33,563 nucleotides of DNA from Microcaldota archaeon. Lineage in GTDB: Archaea > Micrarchaeota > Micrarchaeia > Micrarchaeales > CABMGC01. How positions within the stretch are numbered: position 1 is the stretch's first letter; each line of letters begins with the position of its first letter. The notes beneath the pieces were generated by a model that saw nothing but the letters and a program-made list of their open reading frames with translations, was not told the origin of the DNA and did not search any database. This document shows positions 7,810 through 15,736 of the stretch, one piece after another. The DNA is taken from the NCBI GenBank assembly GCA_021797995.1, contig JAJZYR010000009.1, positions 1 through 33,563 of the forward strand. Direction: 5' to 3'. A program made the position numbers and the translations under genes.

Positions 7810-8331
7810 ATGCGCGCAGTGGAGGCAATGGCACAGCCAATGGCACAGATAACGATAGAGAAGCCAGCAGAAGGCGACATACCCGCGATAATCGGGATGG
7901 TCAGCGCCGAGGCGAAGAGCACCGGCGCGCTCCTTCCGGTGTCAAGCGATACGCTCAGGGGGTGGATAAGCTCAGGGCTCTCGTATGTTGCAAAGCATTC
8001 CGGCACGGTCGTCGGGCATGAGGCTGCGCACATATGGCCCAAATCTGGCTGGATAGAGCTGCGTTCAGCGGTCGTGAAGCCGGAATACCGAGGTATGGGG
8101 ATAGGGAGCAGGATGAGTGCGGCCCTGCTGGAGGATTTAAGGAAGGAGCACTGCCGGAGTACGGTTGTTGCGTTTACCAACATGGCCGGGAAGGGCAAGG
8201 GGATACTCAAGGCCCGCGGCTTCAGGGAAATTGGGCGCGAGGGCGTTCCCGAGGAGCTTTTCACGATAGGCCCGAAGCACCGCGGCAAGAGCGAGTTCGG
8301 ATACAAGATATTCGTGCTCACTCCCAGCTAA
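7810..8331 (+). CDS. GNAT-family N-acetyltransferase
   Basis: [30 protein letters not shown] (R-x-x-G-x-G/A acetyl-CoA motif). Confidence 0.8.
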
Positions 8332-8368: not shown

Positions 8369-9631
8369 ATGTCATCAAAGAAAGTGGTACTGGCATACAG
8401 CGGAGGGCTTGACACATCGGTGATACTCAAGTGGCTCTGCAACAGCGGCTACGAGGTAATCTGCTTTGTAGGCAACGTTGGCCAGGACGAGGACTTCGCG
8501 GCAATAAAGAGGAAGGCGCTCGCCACAGGGGCCTCGAAGGTGTACGTCGAGGATCTCAGGGAAGAGTTCGTAACCGACTACATATTCCCGGCAATGCGGG
8601 GTGATGCGCTCTACGAAGGCCGGTACCTTCTGGGCACAGCGCTCGCGCGCCCCCTTCTCGCAAGGACGCAGATCGAGATTGCAGGGAAGGAGCACGCCCA
8701 GTATGTCGCGCATGGCGCCACTGGAAAGGGAAACGACCAGGTCCGGTTCGAGCTCACGTATTATGCGCTGAACCCAGGTATAAAGATAATAGCGCCGTGG
8801 AAGGATCCTGGATTCCTCTCCGAATTCAAGGGGCGGGGCGACCTGATCAGGTATGCTGAAAGGTACGGAATACCTGTCAAGGCCACCAAGGCCAAGCCTT
8901 ACAGCGAGGACGAGAACCTCATGCACATAAGCCATGAATCCGGAGTCCTGGAGGATCCGGCCTACAGGCCGCCGGAGCACGTCTTCTCGAAGACAGCGCC
9001 GATAGACAAGGCGCCAAACAGCGAGACTGTAATAGAGATAACGTTCAAGGACGGCAATCCGGTAAAGGTAATGGACAAGAGCGCGAAGGTTGTAAAGACA
9101 GGGGCTCTTGAGATGTTCACATACCTGAACAAGATAGGCTGCGAGAACGGGGTCGGCCGCGTGGACATGGTCGAGAACAGGTTTGTCGGGATAAAGTCAA
9201 GGGGGGTCTACGAGACCCCAGGAGCGACGATACTCTGGGCCGCGCACCGCGACCTCGAGGGCATCGCAATGGACAAGGAAGTAATGCACATACGCGACAT
9301 GTTCATCCCTAAGTTCTCCGAGCTCATCTACAACGGCTTCTGGTTCTCGCCGGAGATGGATTTCCTGATGAATGCGTTCGACAAGAGCCAGGAGGCGATA
9401 GACGGCAGGGTCATGCTCTCCATCTACAAGGGGAATGTCATCACTATAGGGAGGGAGGCATTTACCCCTCTCTACGACCAGAAGCAGTCGAGCATGGAGG
9501 AAGAAGGGGGGTTCAACGCCGCCGACTCAAAGGGATTCATAGACGTAAATGCCATCAGGCTCAAGGCGCACTTCGTGGCGCTGAAGGGAAAGCTTCCGTA
9601 CAAGTGGATGAGGAAATGGGAGAAAGCATGA
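8369..9631 (+). CDS. argG: Argininosuccinate synthase
   Basis: N-terminal [18 protein letters not shown]-loop; [32 protein letters not shown]. Confidence 0.97.
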
Positions 9632-10821
9632 GTCCTGCCAGGCTCTGGGACAAGGGATACAAGGTCGACGAGGCGGTAGAGGAATTTACCGTAGGCAACG
9701 ACTACCGGCTTGATCTCAATCTGCTGAAGTACGACTGCATGGCATCAATAGCCCATGCGAAGATGCTCGCAAAGATTGGCATACTGACAGGGCCAGAGTG
9801 CGGGAAGATAGTAAAGGAGCTGCAGAGGATAAAGAAGCTGAGCGAGGAGCGCAAGTTTCCTATCCTAAAGGGGCAGGAGGACTGCCACACCGCGATAGAG
9901 AATGAGCTTACCAGGACTCTTGGGGAGCTTGGGAAGAAGATACACGCCGGCAGGTCGAGGAACGACCAGGTGCTCACCGCTCTCAGGCTGTACTACATGG
10001 ATAACATAAGGGAGTGCATAAGCCTTTCGAAGTCGTACGTTCAGGCGCTAAACTTCTTCAGCAGCAAGTACGGCAGGATACGTATTCCAGGGTACACGCA
10101 CACGAGAAAGGCCATGCCCTCGTCCGTAAAGCTATGGGCGGGCGCGTTCATCGACTCTATGCTTGACAACATAAAGCTGCTCGAGTGCGCCCTCGCGCTT
10201 GTAGACCAGTCGCCGCTGGGTACCGGGGCGGGCTATGGTAGCCCGATAAAATACGACATGGAGTATGCCGCCACTGAGCTCGGCTTCTCGGCCGTGCAGA
10301 AGAACCCGATATACGCGCAGCTGAGCCGGGGCAAGTTCGAGTCAACAATACTCCATGCGCTGACGCAGATCATGTTCGACATCAACAGGCTCTCTACGGA
10401 CCTCATAATCTTCAGCATGCCTGAGTTCGGATACTACGAACTGCCGGACAGCTTTACCACCGGGAGCTCGATGATGCCGCAGAAGAAGAACCCCGACGTC
10501 CTCGAGCTGCTCCGCGCAAAGTATCATGTTGTCGTTGCATTGGAGACTGAGGTAAAGGCGATCTCCTCGAACCTTCCTACGGGGTACAGCCGTGATCTTC
10601 AGCTGACGAAGGGTTCCATAATGAAGGGGTTCATGGTCACCGAGCAGAGCCTGAAAGTCTCTGCGCTGCTGTTCAGGAACCTGAAGGTAAGCAAGAAGAG
10701 GTGCAAGAAGGCCATGACGAAGGAGCTCTACGCCACGGAGCGGGCGCACGTGCTCGTGGAGAAGGGGGTGCCTTTCAGGGATGCGTACAAGCGGGTATCA
10801 AGGGAGCTTGAGGGGAAGTAG
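9628..10821 (+). CDS. argH: Argininosuccinate lyase
   Basis: Fumarase/lyase signature [33 protein letters not shown] at 9628 overlaps the argG stop (ATGA). Confidence 0.96.
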
Positions 10822-10921
10822 TGCCGTCGTACAGCAAGATCAAAGGAACAAACAACAGTACCGATATTGACAAAAAGAAAGACCTTTTTATATCAGGAAA
10901 CACATATGTTCCCGTGGTAAG

Positions 10922-11902
10922 ATGTCTGCTCATCTGGAGAGTTCAGAGATACAGAGACTCGCAGCAGAGCTTCTGGGTGGTAGAGAGATATCCGACTTCG
11001 CAATTGGCTTCATACATAATATGAAGGCAACCGAAGAGTCGATAAGGGCAGTGCATGCAGTACTCACTGAACTCGGCCTCTCAGAGGAGAAGATCGCAAC
11101 CTATGCACAGCTCCTCGGCCGTGACCCAGAGACCATCCAGCGAAACTACGGCAACCTCAGGAGGATCGGACTTTCAGAGGAGAAGATCGCAACCTATGCA
11201 CAGCTCCTCGGCCTTGACCCAGAGACTATCCAGAGAAACTACGGCAACCTCAGGAGGATCGGACTTTCAGAGGAGAAGATCGCAACCTATGCACAGCTCC
11301 TCGGCCTTGACCCAGAGACCCTCCAGCGAAACTACGGCAACCTCAGGAGGATCGGACTTTCAGAGGAGAAGATCGCAACCAATGCACATCTCCTCAGCCG
11401 CGACCCAGAGACCATCCAGCGAAACTACGGCAACCTCAGGAGGATCGGACTTTCAGAGGAGAAGATCGCAACCTATGCACAGCTCCTCGGCCGCGACCCA
11501 GAGACTATCCAGAGAAACTACAGCAACCATATCGGTCTTCTTGGAGGAAGGGAATGCGGAAGGAGCATACTTACCACATTTGCAAGTCTTCTTGGCAGGT
11601 CCCCTGATGGCTTTACTGCCACTTTCCAGCATCTCGCATACATAGACAGGCAGGGTGGCAATGGAAATGCACCAATCTATGAGAAGAACCCTATACTATT
11701 AGGTACTACATCTGCAAAGCAGCGCGAGAAGATGGCATTCCTGCTCAGGGAGATCTACGACTACAGAAAACTTGGCTCTGACGAGAAGAAGGCTGCAATA
11801 AAGGGGGTTTACAGGCTGGTATCTGATAATCCACAGTTACTTGCATGCTCGATCCCAACTCTGGAAAGGAAGGTGGACGCGATAAGGCGGAAGGCTGCGT
11901 GA
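10922..11902 (+). CDS. Tandem helical-repeat protein (31-aa mTERF/TALE-like repeats) with uncharacterised C-terminal domain
   Basis: Five near-identical GLSEEKIATYAQLLGRDPETIQRNYGNLRRI units plus a divergent sixth; C-terminus NPILLGTTSAKQREKMAFLLREIYDYRK.... Confidence 0.85.
   Translation: MSAHLESSEIQRLAAELLGGREISDFAIGFIHNMKATEESIRAVHAVLTELGLSEEKIATYAQLLGRDPETIQRNYGNLRRIGLSEEKIATYAQLLGLDPETIQRNYGNLRRIGLSEEKIATYAQLLGLDPETLQRNYGNLRRIGLSEEKIATNAHLLSRDPETIQRNYGNLRRIGLSEEKIATYAQLLGRDPETIQRNYSNHIGLLGGRECGRSILTTFASLLGRSPDGFTATFQHLAYIDRQGGNGNAPIYEKNPILLGTTSAKQREKMAFLLREIYDYRKLGSDEKKAAIKGVYRLVSDNPQLLACSIPTLERKVDAIRRKAA
11075..11539 (+). repeat. 93-bp tandem repeat, about five copies, in frame
   Basis: Unit starts at 11075, 11168, 11261, 11354, 11447; copies differ at only a few positions. 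Confidence 0.95.
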
Positions 11903-12039: not shown

Positions 12040-13050
12040 ATGGCAATTACGTCAGTTCGAGGAAGGCAGGATCCGGCGCAGCCGGTCCGGCCTGCGCCTG
12101 CGGAGCCTAAGGCATACCAGGCATTCGTAGCCCAGCCGCCGCCAAATTTCCTTGATGGAATTACACAGGGCACTGGCAGCAGTGAGTTAATGGACTTGCT
12201 GCGCAGGAACCCTGAATGCGGCAAAGAGAATAGTTATCAGAAGATACTGCGTCAGTGGTGTGCATATGTAGAGGCCCTGCGGGAGGCCGGCGTAGAGCCT
12301 GTGATATTAGAGGACGGTAGGGAAGGCAGCCCTATGCATCCTGACCGCTCATACGTCCAAGACCAGATATTCATAGTGTCGGTGCAGGGCAGGAAATACG
12401 GGATACTCGCAAATCCAGGCCATCAGGCAAGGGCCGCGGAGCTGGCGGATGTCAAGGCAATGGCCTCGAAAAGCGGCATAGAGACACTGCAAATCGAAAT
12501 GGGTCACATAGAGATCGGGGACATCGTCCCGGACTGGCACAACAAGACCGTATTCGTAGGGATTACCGCAGGGGAGGGCAAGGTCCCGCGAACCGATGAT
12601 GCCGGAGCAGCTGGCTTTGCAGACGTTCTTGGCAGGATAGCCCCGGAGTTCACCGTCGTGGGGCTTAAGCACGAAGGCTCTCCGCACCTGGGAACCCACT
12701 TCACCGTGATAGGAAAAGACATCGCTCTGTGCGATCCCAACGGAAAGATAAGGTTCGATATGCCCTATGTACTAAGGGAGGGCCAGCTCCCGTTCAAGGG
12801 GCTTACGCAGTTTGCAGAACCAGGGGCGCAGGAAGGGATAATCATGGTGCCGGAAAGCGAGGGATATGCCGCAAACGTTCTTGTTGTGAATGGCTTTGCC
12901 ATCGTACCCGAGGGATACGATACAGTTGCAAAGATAGTGGAAAGCGTATACGGCAAGGAGAATACGAAACTCCTTGACTTCAGTGAGTCAAGGGAGATGG
13001 ACGGCAGTTCGACATGCTGGTCCGCGCTTCACTTCGAGCTGCGGGAGTAG
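12040..13050 (+). CDS. Amidinotransferase / DDAH / arginine-deiminase superfamily (guanidino-modifying) enzyme
   Basis: HPDRSYVQDQIFIV, GHIEIGDIVPDWHNKTVFVGITAG (DDAH-like 'DGGDVLF...FFVGLS'), GSPHLGTHFTVIG (His), C-terminal GSSTCWSALHFEL (Cys). Confidence 0.7.
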   Translation: MAITSVRGRQDPAQPVRPAPAEPKAYQAFVAQPPPNFLDGITQGTGSSELMDLLRRNPECGKENSYQKILRQWCAYVEALREAGVEPVILEDGREGSPMHPDRSYVQDQIFIVSVQGRKYGILANPGHQARAAELADVKAMASKSGIETLQIEMGHIEIGDIVPDWHNKTVFVGITAGEGKVPRTDDAGAAGFADVLGRIAPEFTVVGLKHEGSPHLGTHFTVIGKDIALCDPNGKIRFDMPYVLREGQLPFKGLTQFAEPGAQEGIIMVPESEGYAANVLVVNGFAIVPEGYDTVAKIVESVYGKENTKLLDFSESREMDGSSTCWSALHFELRE

Positions 13051-13060
13051 GTGACTGACA

Positions 13061-13708
13061 ATGGCAGCAATACATAGATCAATCTCAAGGTCCTCTGCGC
13101 AGCCCGCTGGGCTAAACCCGGACTTCCGCGGGATTGCAGCAGGGGGGAGCTCCTTCATGCCAAGAAAAGCCGTGCAAGCTGACTTCGGAGCAATCCGCGA
13201 CCTTATTGCCGCCGAGGCGAAGCTCTCAGGCAAGGTCATAGACCGTGACGACGAAAGGATAAAGGAATGGATAAGCAATGGGATGTCGTTCGTGGCCGTG
13301 GACGAAAACGGCAGTATAGTCTCGCATGTCGCCCTTGACAGGTGGCCCGGATGCGTGGAGCTGGTCTCGGCGGTGACGGTCCCGGGGCACCGCGGCAAGG
13401 GCATCTACGAAAGCATGCATGCTGCAATACTCGAGGCGCACTTTGCGGAACCAGGCGCAGTGCCTGTCGTAAGCGTAAAGAATGATGCAAGCAACGGGCG
13501 CAGGCTTAAGCAGGCTGCAGGATTCAAGGAAGTGGGGCTTGCCGAGGCTGAGGCCACCGGGCTGAGGCTGCTTAAGCCAGAAGCAGGGCCATGGACGGTA
13601 TACCTGCTCACGCAGGAAGCATACCTGCTTGCAAAGGGGCTCAGGCGCGATGGCGCCGGCCCAAACGCCGCACAGTATGCAGGGCTGGCAAGGGACGTCG
13701 CAATGTAA
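13061..13708 (+). CDS. GNAT-family N-acetyltransferase (paralogue of the 7810 gene)
   Basis: VELVSAVTVPGHRGKGIYESMHAAILE aligns with [27 protein letters not shown]. Confidence 0.78.
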   Translation: MAAIHRSISRSSAQPAGLNPDFRGIAAGGSSFMPRKAVQADFGAIRDLIAAEAKLSGKVIDRDDERIKEWISNGMSFVAVDENGSIVSHVALDRWPGCVELVSAVTVPGHRGKGIYESMHAAILEAHFAEPGAVPVVSVKNDASNGRRLKQAAGFKEVGLAEAEATGLRLLKPEAGPWTVYLLTQEAYLLAKGLRRDGAGPNAAQYAGLARDVAM

Positions 13709-14641: not shown

Positions 14642-15736
14642 ATGCAAAAAGCAAGAAGGGTAGGCCAAGAGGCAGAATTAACAAGAGGGGCCGGCAAAGA
14701 GGCCGAATTAAAGGACAAATTAATAAGGGCCGTCTTTGCCCTCCCGCGCGAGAAGCGGATGCAGTTTCTGGAGGGCGGTCCGGTTAACTTTCGCGTGGCA
14801 ATACCAGATCCAGAAGACATACCTAATCTAATTCGGAAAGTCGAAGCAATTGCAGAGGGCCGAGAGCGCATAGCTGATTCTGGCTCCGCCACAAGCCAGG
14901 GTCAACAGCCTCCGGGAGCCAGTCCTGCAGCCGATGGACAGGTAAAGCAGCCTTCCGGCCATGACGGAAAGGCAGTCGATGCGGAGTCGGCTGAGCCTGC
15001 GGTGATGGAGCGTGCGATAGCGCTGCTATTCAAGATGCGCGATCTGGAACAGGCAAGGAGAGTAGAGAAAATAGAACCCGCAGAACTTGGCAGTAAGCTT
15101 AGTGACATACGCGCCGAGGCAGTTACAATCCCGGGGAGCCTGCGGCATTCAGTTGAACGCATACTTGCACAACAAAGCGGCATTATGCCAAGGGATCTTG
15201 AGCAGCTTGCCAAGAGTGATGATCCACGTACACTGGTCCATGTCTGCGGCAACAGGAAAACACCCCCAGAGACGCTGCACAGTATGGCTTCGGCGGTCAT
15301 GCCGATGCAAATGAAGCATACTGGTGCCTCAGGAGAGACGCTGAGGCACAGCTATGCTTCAGGAGAGATGCTGCTTGCCGCAATAGCCGGCAACCCGAAT
15401 GCATACAATAAGACGCTCCACCAGATTGTCAGTGACGGGCGCGTTCCGCAGTGGGTAAGAGACATTGCAGTCAGTAGACTCATCCACAAGAGGGCCTTGC
15501 AGATTATATCCGAGAATGAAGAAGGCATTAAACCAGGGTCGGGAGAAGCCGAGGAGATTGCCGCAATGGCTGGGAGTCCGCAGACGCGCCATGGCACACT
15601 CTACATTATCTCTGAAGCCGAACAGGTGCCTAAGCAGATAAGGAATGCCGCACTCACGGTGCTCGATGACAGGAGAGTCCATCCTAAGCTGCAGTTAGGC
15701 AAGTGGACGGCAGTGCAAGCAGGCAATCCCATATAA
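14642..15736 (+). CDS. LRV/HEAT-like helical repeat protein (hypothetical)
   Basis: 364 aa; repeats like LAKSDDPRTLVHVCGNRKTPPETLHSMA, LLAAIAGNPNAYNKTLHQIV, IAAMAGSPQTRHGTLYIISE resemble leucine-rich-variant repeats. Confidence 0.6.
   Translation: MQKARRVGQEAELTRGAGKEAELKDKLIRAVFALPREKRMQFLEGGPVNFRVAIPDPEDIPNLIRKVEAIAEGRERIADSGSATSQGQQPPGASPAADGQVKQPSGHDGKAVDAESAEPAVMERAIALLFKMRDLEQARRVEKIEPAELGSKLSDIRAEAVTIPGSLRHSVERILAQQSGIMPRDLEQLAKSDDPRTLVHVCGNRKTPPETLHSMASAVMPMQMKHTGASGETLRHSYASGEMLLAAIAGNPNAYNKTLHQIVSDGRVPQWVRDIAVSRLIHKRALQIISENEEGIKPGSGEAEEIAAMAGSPQTRHGTLYIISEAEQVPKQIRNAALTVLDDRRVHPKLQLGKWTAVQAGNPI

Follow-up and report, generated by a model that had tools for sequence, protein, structure and literature searches.

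An archaeal mTERF protein with near-identical tandem repeats that vary mainly at or beside positions corresponding to MTERF1 base contacts

The DNA analysed here, hereafter the window, is a stretch of 33,563 nucleotides from a Micrarchaeota archaeon. At 10922..11902 on the + strand it carries a gene with an ATG start for a tandem mTERF-repeat protein of 326 aa, assigned by Pfam (PF02536), AlphaFold and Foldseek similarity to MTERF1. The gene is preceded by two others that, from reading their translations, we take to be argG (8369-9631) and argH (9604-10821). In G002, a genome of the same genus as that of the window (G000), the C-terminus of argH precedes the ortholog L002 as well, and the paralog L007 is located elsewhere. 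Two GNAT acetyltransferase-like genes (7810-8331 and 13061-13708; Pfam Acetyltransf_1) flank the argG-argH-mTERF stretch. Near the arginine-biosynthesis genes, the 336-aa product of 12040-13050 has a weak, below cut-off match (0.0045) to a eukaryotic-type dimethylarginine dimethylaminohydrolase. An open frame at 11055-11645, in a different frame, was rejected as a gene and is an open-frame echo of the repeat.

As a preliminary description of the locus had stated, the protein contains five in-frame units of 31 aa (93 bp), recovered both by Tandem Repeats Finder and by translation of the open reading frame. The program reported an array at 11073-11528 with a period of 93, 4.9 copies, 94% matches, 0% indels and a score of 807; in the rest of the whole window it found just one 30-bp pair (score 85). 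The units begin at residues 52, 83, 114, 145 and 176, and their DNA is 85-97% identical (~91%) in pairwise comparison. Among units 1-4, amino acid changes are confined to unit positions 10 (Y/N), 12 (Q/H), 15 (G/S), 16 (R/L) and 21 (I/L), exactly the differences listed earlier. Herein, P denotes the mTERF proline or the alanine replacing it (Ala11 of the window unit). This register was set because L023, L043 and L025 have units with Pro at this place, because the central helix of the model starts there, and because the flanking pattern is shared by the subfamilies termed below types II and III. The residues at P-2, P-1, P+1, P+4 and P+5 read TY.Q.GR in unit 1 (11075..11167, +), TY.Q.GL in unit 2 (11168..11260, +) and unit 3 (11261..11353, +), TN.H.SR in unit 4 (11354..11446, +), which is the odd one out, and TY.Q.GR in unit 5 (11447..11539, +), whose sequence departs from the others past QRNY. 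Synonymous codons differ too among the units; thus, they do not stem from a brand-new duplication of a single copy. The pN/pS ratio of the array is 1.12 at the variable positions and 0.33 outside them, the latter indicating a protein-coding repeat under purifying selection.

Degenerate units lie on both sides of the five. The N-terminal capping unit (residues 21-51; 10982..11074, +) is placed one 31-residue period ahead of unit 1, with model helices at 25-33 and 38-50. Unit 6 (ILTTFASLLGRSPDGF..., residues 207-244; 11540..11653, +) is degenerate and has the three-helix pattern in the model (H209-219, H221-225, H228-244). Unit 7 (residues 245-281; 11654..11764, +), recognised as an mTERF motif by inspection, carries the canonical mTERF Pro (NPILLGTTSAKQREKMAFLLREIYDY; NPILL), and AlphaFold confidence is low over residues 246-261. 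Unit 8 (residues 282-326; 11765..11899, +; H286-302, H304-308, H311-316, H318-325) is the C-terminal cap, again with a canonical Pro (NPQLL); P304 in this unit is invariant in profile A3. The charge of the repeat region is nearly neutral (21 K/R vs 20 D/E), which weighs against DNA binding. No paralog of the protein was found in its own genome (0.95 Mb, 32 contigs). Since the assembly has 32 contigs and several homologous arrays stop at contig ends, the true copy number of the array may be larger than assembled.

A TATA-like box of archaeal type (CTTTTTATAT; 10884..10893, +) was located by sequence ~29 nt ahead of the ATG, and L002 and L007 have its core (TTTTTATA) unchanged. A near-leaderless transcript would be expected. 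Upstream of it, at 10838..10853 (+), the promoters of three genus-level homologs share a conserved block, GATCAAAGGAACAAAC (also given as GATCAAANNAACAAAC, the first base varying in L002), with all 13 specified core bases common to the window, L002 and L007. Allowing at most one mismatch, this is the sole occurrence of the block in G000, and all its occurrences in G002 lie ahead of the two homologs there; in G003 the single match falls within a coding gene. It is possibly an operator or activator site, and as such a lead for regulation. Autoregulation through the block, though attractive, was set aside: three proteins with different variable residues share this one block, and it may thus be bound by something else.

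The Pfam mTERF model, PF02536, matched the window protein at 5.6e-10 (39.1 bits vs a cut-off of 23.1); near-identical repeats inflate such Pfam and profile E-values, as they can whole-protein scores, and single stretches of ~100 aa pass the cut-off by themselves. Among the relatives, L021, L023 (6e-20), L024, L025 (Lokiarchaeota, 3e-22), L080, L089 (1.4e-25) and L003 also exceeded the cut-off, with L026 and L004 slightly under it. Because of the inflation, the assignment leans on the fold, the reciprocal profile search and residue-level agreement jointly. With seven family sequences as input, AlphaFold predicted for the 326-aa protein an mTERF-type alpha-helical superhelix (pLDDT 83.6, pTM 0.61), in keeping with the superhelix proposed beforehand. 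In each modelled unit, helix A (SEEKIA) is followed, after a one-residue break, by a central helix (AQLLG) and then by the long helix B (PETIQRNYGNLRR), and the same three-helix pattern was predicted in most units of L023 (pLDDT 87.9, pTM 0.69). When the two models were searched with Foldseek against the PDB, human MTERF1-DNA complexes ranked first for both (TM 0.56-0.60 for the window protein and, by query length, 0.46-0.49 for L023), followed by MTERF3/MTERF4, with TALE lower (TM 0.34 or less); the Foldseek probability to MTERF1/3/4 was 1.00. In the reverse direction, the archaeal types II/III profile A5 found MTERF1 (6e-12) and MTERF3 (7e-9). The place of the canonical mTERF Pro is taken by Ala in window units 1-5 and by Pro in units 7 and 8; Pro also stands there in some type I units (L023, L043, L025) and throughout types II/III. 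By Pfam, predicted fold and the match of the archaeal profile to MTERF1, the window protein is an archaeal mTERF protein, which upholds the mTERF likeness first seen by eye. Matches to HTH_38, Crp, TrmB and other HTH Pfam models were rejected as domains, each consisting of few to ~40 residues within one repeat summed over the units, and the predicted fold being a solenoid.

A likeness to TALE repeats had been proposed alongside that to mTERF. It holds at the level of sequence: profile A3 matches a TALE construct at 1.2e-19, a value summed over several stretches, and the 31-mers of the designed dTor toroids at 2.5e-10; TAL_effector matches L024 below its cut-off (1.1e-5, 26.1 bits vs 28); and for L023, TALE structures rank second after mTERF. 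TALE/Bat-type repeats are likewise near-identical helical units of 30-35 residues with few variable residues each and local sequence similarity. As a fold, the likeness fails. TALE units have two helices, whereas the models of the window protein and L023 have three per unit; the TALE RVD columns align to the invariant L13-L14, so that the few variable residues per repeat, which were indeed found, include no pair aligned to the RVD. Moreover, PF02536 and not TAL_effector passes its cut-off, the TAL_effector model of Pfam gave no match on the window protein, and MTERF1 is the best structural match. That the repeat is TALE-like or designed-toroid-like instead of mTERF is, in our judgment, highly improbable. 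The designed alpha-toroids dTor_9x31L and dTor_12x31L (5BYO, 4YXZ) share with it a 31-residue unit and a similar helix pattern and consensus, but they are artificial and the sequence similarity is convergent only.

The preliminary description had also set apart a conserved C-terminal module that might always accompany the array. No Pfam family matched residues 201-326, and a separate domain was rejected, as the model repeats the three-helix pattern in this part and the NP-x-LL motif occurs twice. The module looks like further mTERF motifs, two of them with the canonical Pro. Nor is it a constant companion of the array: L003 and L004 end otherwise, and L005 has the module but hardly any repeats.

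Profile searches of archaeal genomes showed where relatives occur. The type I profile matched 18 of 301 genomes of the phylum of the window, Micrarchaeota, and PF02536 matched 22 of the 301 as well as 2 of 228 genomes of the Lokiarchaeota phylum; at the same threshold, none of 14 control genomes had a PF02536 match. Three array subfamilies were distinguished: type I (the window; Ala for Pro), type II (e.g. L071, L089, L073) and type III (L080, L084, L069). Repeat number varies, as had been anticipated, from 3 to 13 parsed units per array, several arrays being cut by contig ends and all relatives being MAGs, whose short-read assemblies can collapse arrays. Paralogs on the same scaffold type but with different variable residues coexist within one genome: two in G002 (P-2/P-1 pairs SR SR QQ QQ TS in L002 and TS TL QQ TN in L007, compared with TY TY TY TN TY in the window protein), several in G140 and two in G057, which like G010 belongs to the family of the window's genome. 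The longer arrays of L071, L089, L073, L080 and L066, which belong to types II and III and yielded 4-13 parsed units, some of them being truncated at contig ends, vary at the same S-loop positions (KF/MS/KY/KH ahead of Pro). Contig ends fall inside the arrays of L003, L008, L009, L016, L019 and L071, and short-read assemblies probably break or collapse such repeat genes. In Lokiarchaeota, one contig codes for an mTERF protein of 526 aa that contains many divergent units (L025), and a second genome of that phylum holds a broken copy with stops inside (L065). Lateral spread to Marsarchaeota through L031 was rejected: this fragment is identical to L016 (Micrarchaeota G115) and its open frame starts at a contig end, and the Marsarchaeota label is likely a binning or naming error. 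A viral origin of the gene was not supported either, no window-type repeat protein being found in phage records and viral contigs.

In 2014, mTERFs were said to be eukaryote-only (PMC4005652), and our literature search, which covered few subscription journals, found no report of archaeal mTERFs. The bacterial pTERF proteins (Hu et al. 2024), mostly of Bacillota, have 3-11 tandem three-helix mTERF-like repeats that are devoid of the canonical mTERF Pro and heptad features (PMC11417379). Specific dsDNA binding is reported for two of them, pTERF1 (Kd of 1.87 nM, motif ACTNNNAGTC) and pTERF2, and differing repeat arrangements bind differing motifs (PMC11417379); these two are the only tested prokaryotic tandem mTERF-like proteins that we found. 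Compared by published description, the window array agrees with pTERF in having tandem mTERF-like repeats in a prokaryote with the canonical Pro missing (window units 1-5). All reported pTERF members are bacterial, whereas the window array is archaeal, and the published text is without specificity positions, to which the archaeal arrays give a sharper clue. The window protein can be regarded as an archaeal variant of this known kind of protein.

To describe where the units diverge, near-identical repeats from 22 arrays of the three subfamilies were compared column by column. The most variable columns were P-1, P+5, P+1 and P+4, with P-2 in seventh place. Together these 5 of 31 columns held 40% of the amino acid differences vs 11% of the synonymous ones, an enrichment with a permutation P of 0.00002 over non-core columns, for a column set that was picked after viewing the sequences. 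As a guard, columns were learned on type I and tested on types II/III: the top five learned with the window left out predicted types II/III at P = 0.0012, and the variability profiles of type I and types II/III were correlated (Spearman 0.54, P = 0.002). The pN/pS ratio was ~1 at the five positions vs 0.2-0.5 in the remaining columns, and a value of ~1 fits relaxed constraint and diversifying selection equally. In 95 type I-like units, the P-2/P-1 pair was SQ in 19, SR in 18, TN in 12, QQ in 10, TY in 5 and TL in 4, with 20 rarer pairs. Where P-1 was Arg, P+1 was Asp or Glu in 14 of 20 units, and without that Arg in 0 of 75 (Fisher 2e-12, nine proteins; the P value is optimistic, since units share descent). 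Such a pattern would be expected of a buttressed, base-reading arginine.

These positions can be set against human MTERF1 (mitochondrial transcription termination factor 1; 3MVA, 3N6S), which has eight 33-residue motifs of three helices each, a conserved proline per motif that forms the S-loop lining the major groove, and base-contacting residues R162, R202, R251, R350 and R387 (PMC4705650). The archaeal repeats share the mTERF fold, motifs of about this length with three helices, and the S-loop position, but the motifs of MTERF1 are degenerate and have retained the Pro, whereas archaeal type I units are near-identical and mostly have Ala there. MTERF1 residues were placed through profile-to-chain alignments (chain number plus 72), which were checked on F243A (5CRK), F322A (5CRJ) and P277 of the GPG loop. 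In this register, R162 is P-2, R202, F243 and R350 are P+1, F322 is P+4, R251 is P+9, and R387 is P+4 when counted from Trp383 in the place of Pro. Of the five variable positions in the archaeal arrays, three thus coincide with contact positions, and the other two, P-1 and P+5, adjoin contacts. P+9 is not notably variable in the archaeal arrays. The strict MTERF1 set of P-2, P+1 and P+4 was rejected as the sole predictor of variability, being enriched at only P ~0.05 in each subfamily. Variability peaks at P-1 and P+5, which lie next to contacts and are not contacts themselves; this counts against explaining the variation by base reading.

Alternatively, the variable positions might just be those surface sites of a recently duplicated solenoid that are under the least constraint, in which case the protein would serve as a scaffold or bind other proteins and carry no nucleic-acid code. 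Their pN/pS of ~1, not clearly >1, fits such a surface, and there is also variation at further exposed columns, among them P-8, P+15 and P+19. Yet many positions of like polarity (K at P-5; E/T/Q/R of helix B) are much less variable, two subfamilies with little common sequence have the same leading columns, few residue pairs recur (SQ, SR, TN and QQ make up 59 of the 95 units), and the pairing of Arg with Asp/Glu is strict. We consider this surface explanation quite unlikely.

By homology to MTERF1, the variable residues would face the DNA groove. We infer that the window protein is probably a sequence-specific dsDNA-binding mTERF protein, whose specificity resides in S-loop and central-helix residues, and which likely acts as a transcription regulator. 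About nine mTERF motifs (the cap, five near-identical and three degenerate units) would stack as a superhelix wrapping double-stranded DNA along the major groove. The S-loop would be the variable pair between helix A and the central helix, and the choice of bases would be set by the S-loop and central-helix residues P-2, P-1, P+1, P+4 and P+5. Tandem duplication would grow and homogenise the arrays while those few residues diverge, and paralogs would be a common scaffold reading different sequences. The likely end result would be a small sequence-specific transcription factor or roadblock.

Some mTERF proteins, such as MTERF4 and plant mTERFs, work on RNA or ribosomes. The archaeal protein could accordingly have the mTERF fold and yet be an RNA- or ribosome-associated factor, with an S-loop that recognises structured or single-stranded RNA. 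The structural matches do include MTERF4-NSUN4 and mitoribosomal mTERF proteins, and several plant mTERFs work on RNA (PMC4005652, PMC13126933). Against this, the variation lies at or beside the DNA base-reading positions of MTERF1 (PMC4705650), and ribosome factors would have no need for near-identical diverging arrays or for paralogs in the same genome that differ in these residues. A further point for DNA over RNA is the specific dsDNA binding of pTERF1 and pTERF2, the prokaryotic tandem relatives for which tests were found (PMC11417379). An RNA or ribosome role is thus unlikely, and dsDNA binding is the reading that we retain.

A further, tentative suggestion is that dsDNA binding follows a modular mTERF recognition code, in which one motif reads one base or base step through its S-loop and central-helix residues; for example, G might be read by an Arg at P-1 that is buttressed by the Asp/Glu at P+1. 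Such arrays might form a naturally programmable DNA-binding scaffold of a different kind from TALE, PPR and PUF, and they might retain an evolutionary link from mTERF to TALE repeats. Archaeal units that are almost alike, and whose differences lie chiefly at known base-contact positions or next to them, amount to a natural experiment for an mTERF code. If true, this would provide a programmable DNA-binding scaffold, compact at ~31 aa per unit, and would have a bearing on how the organellar mTERF family arose.

Elsewhere in the window, a 364-aa protein with no Pfam match is encoded at 14642-15736. A 30-bp tandem pair (14652-14711) lies at its coding start, and the C-terminal half of the protein resembles a series of degenerate helical repeats.
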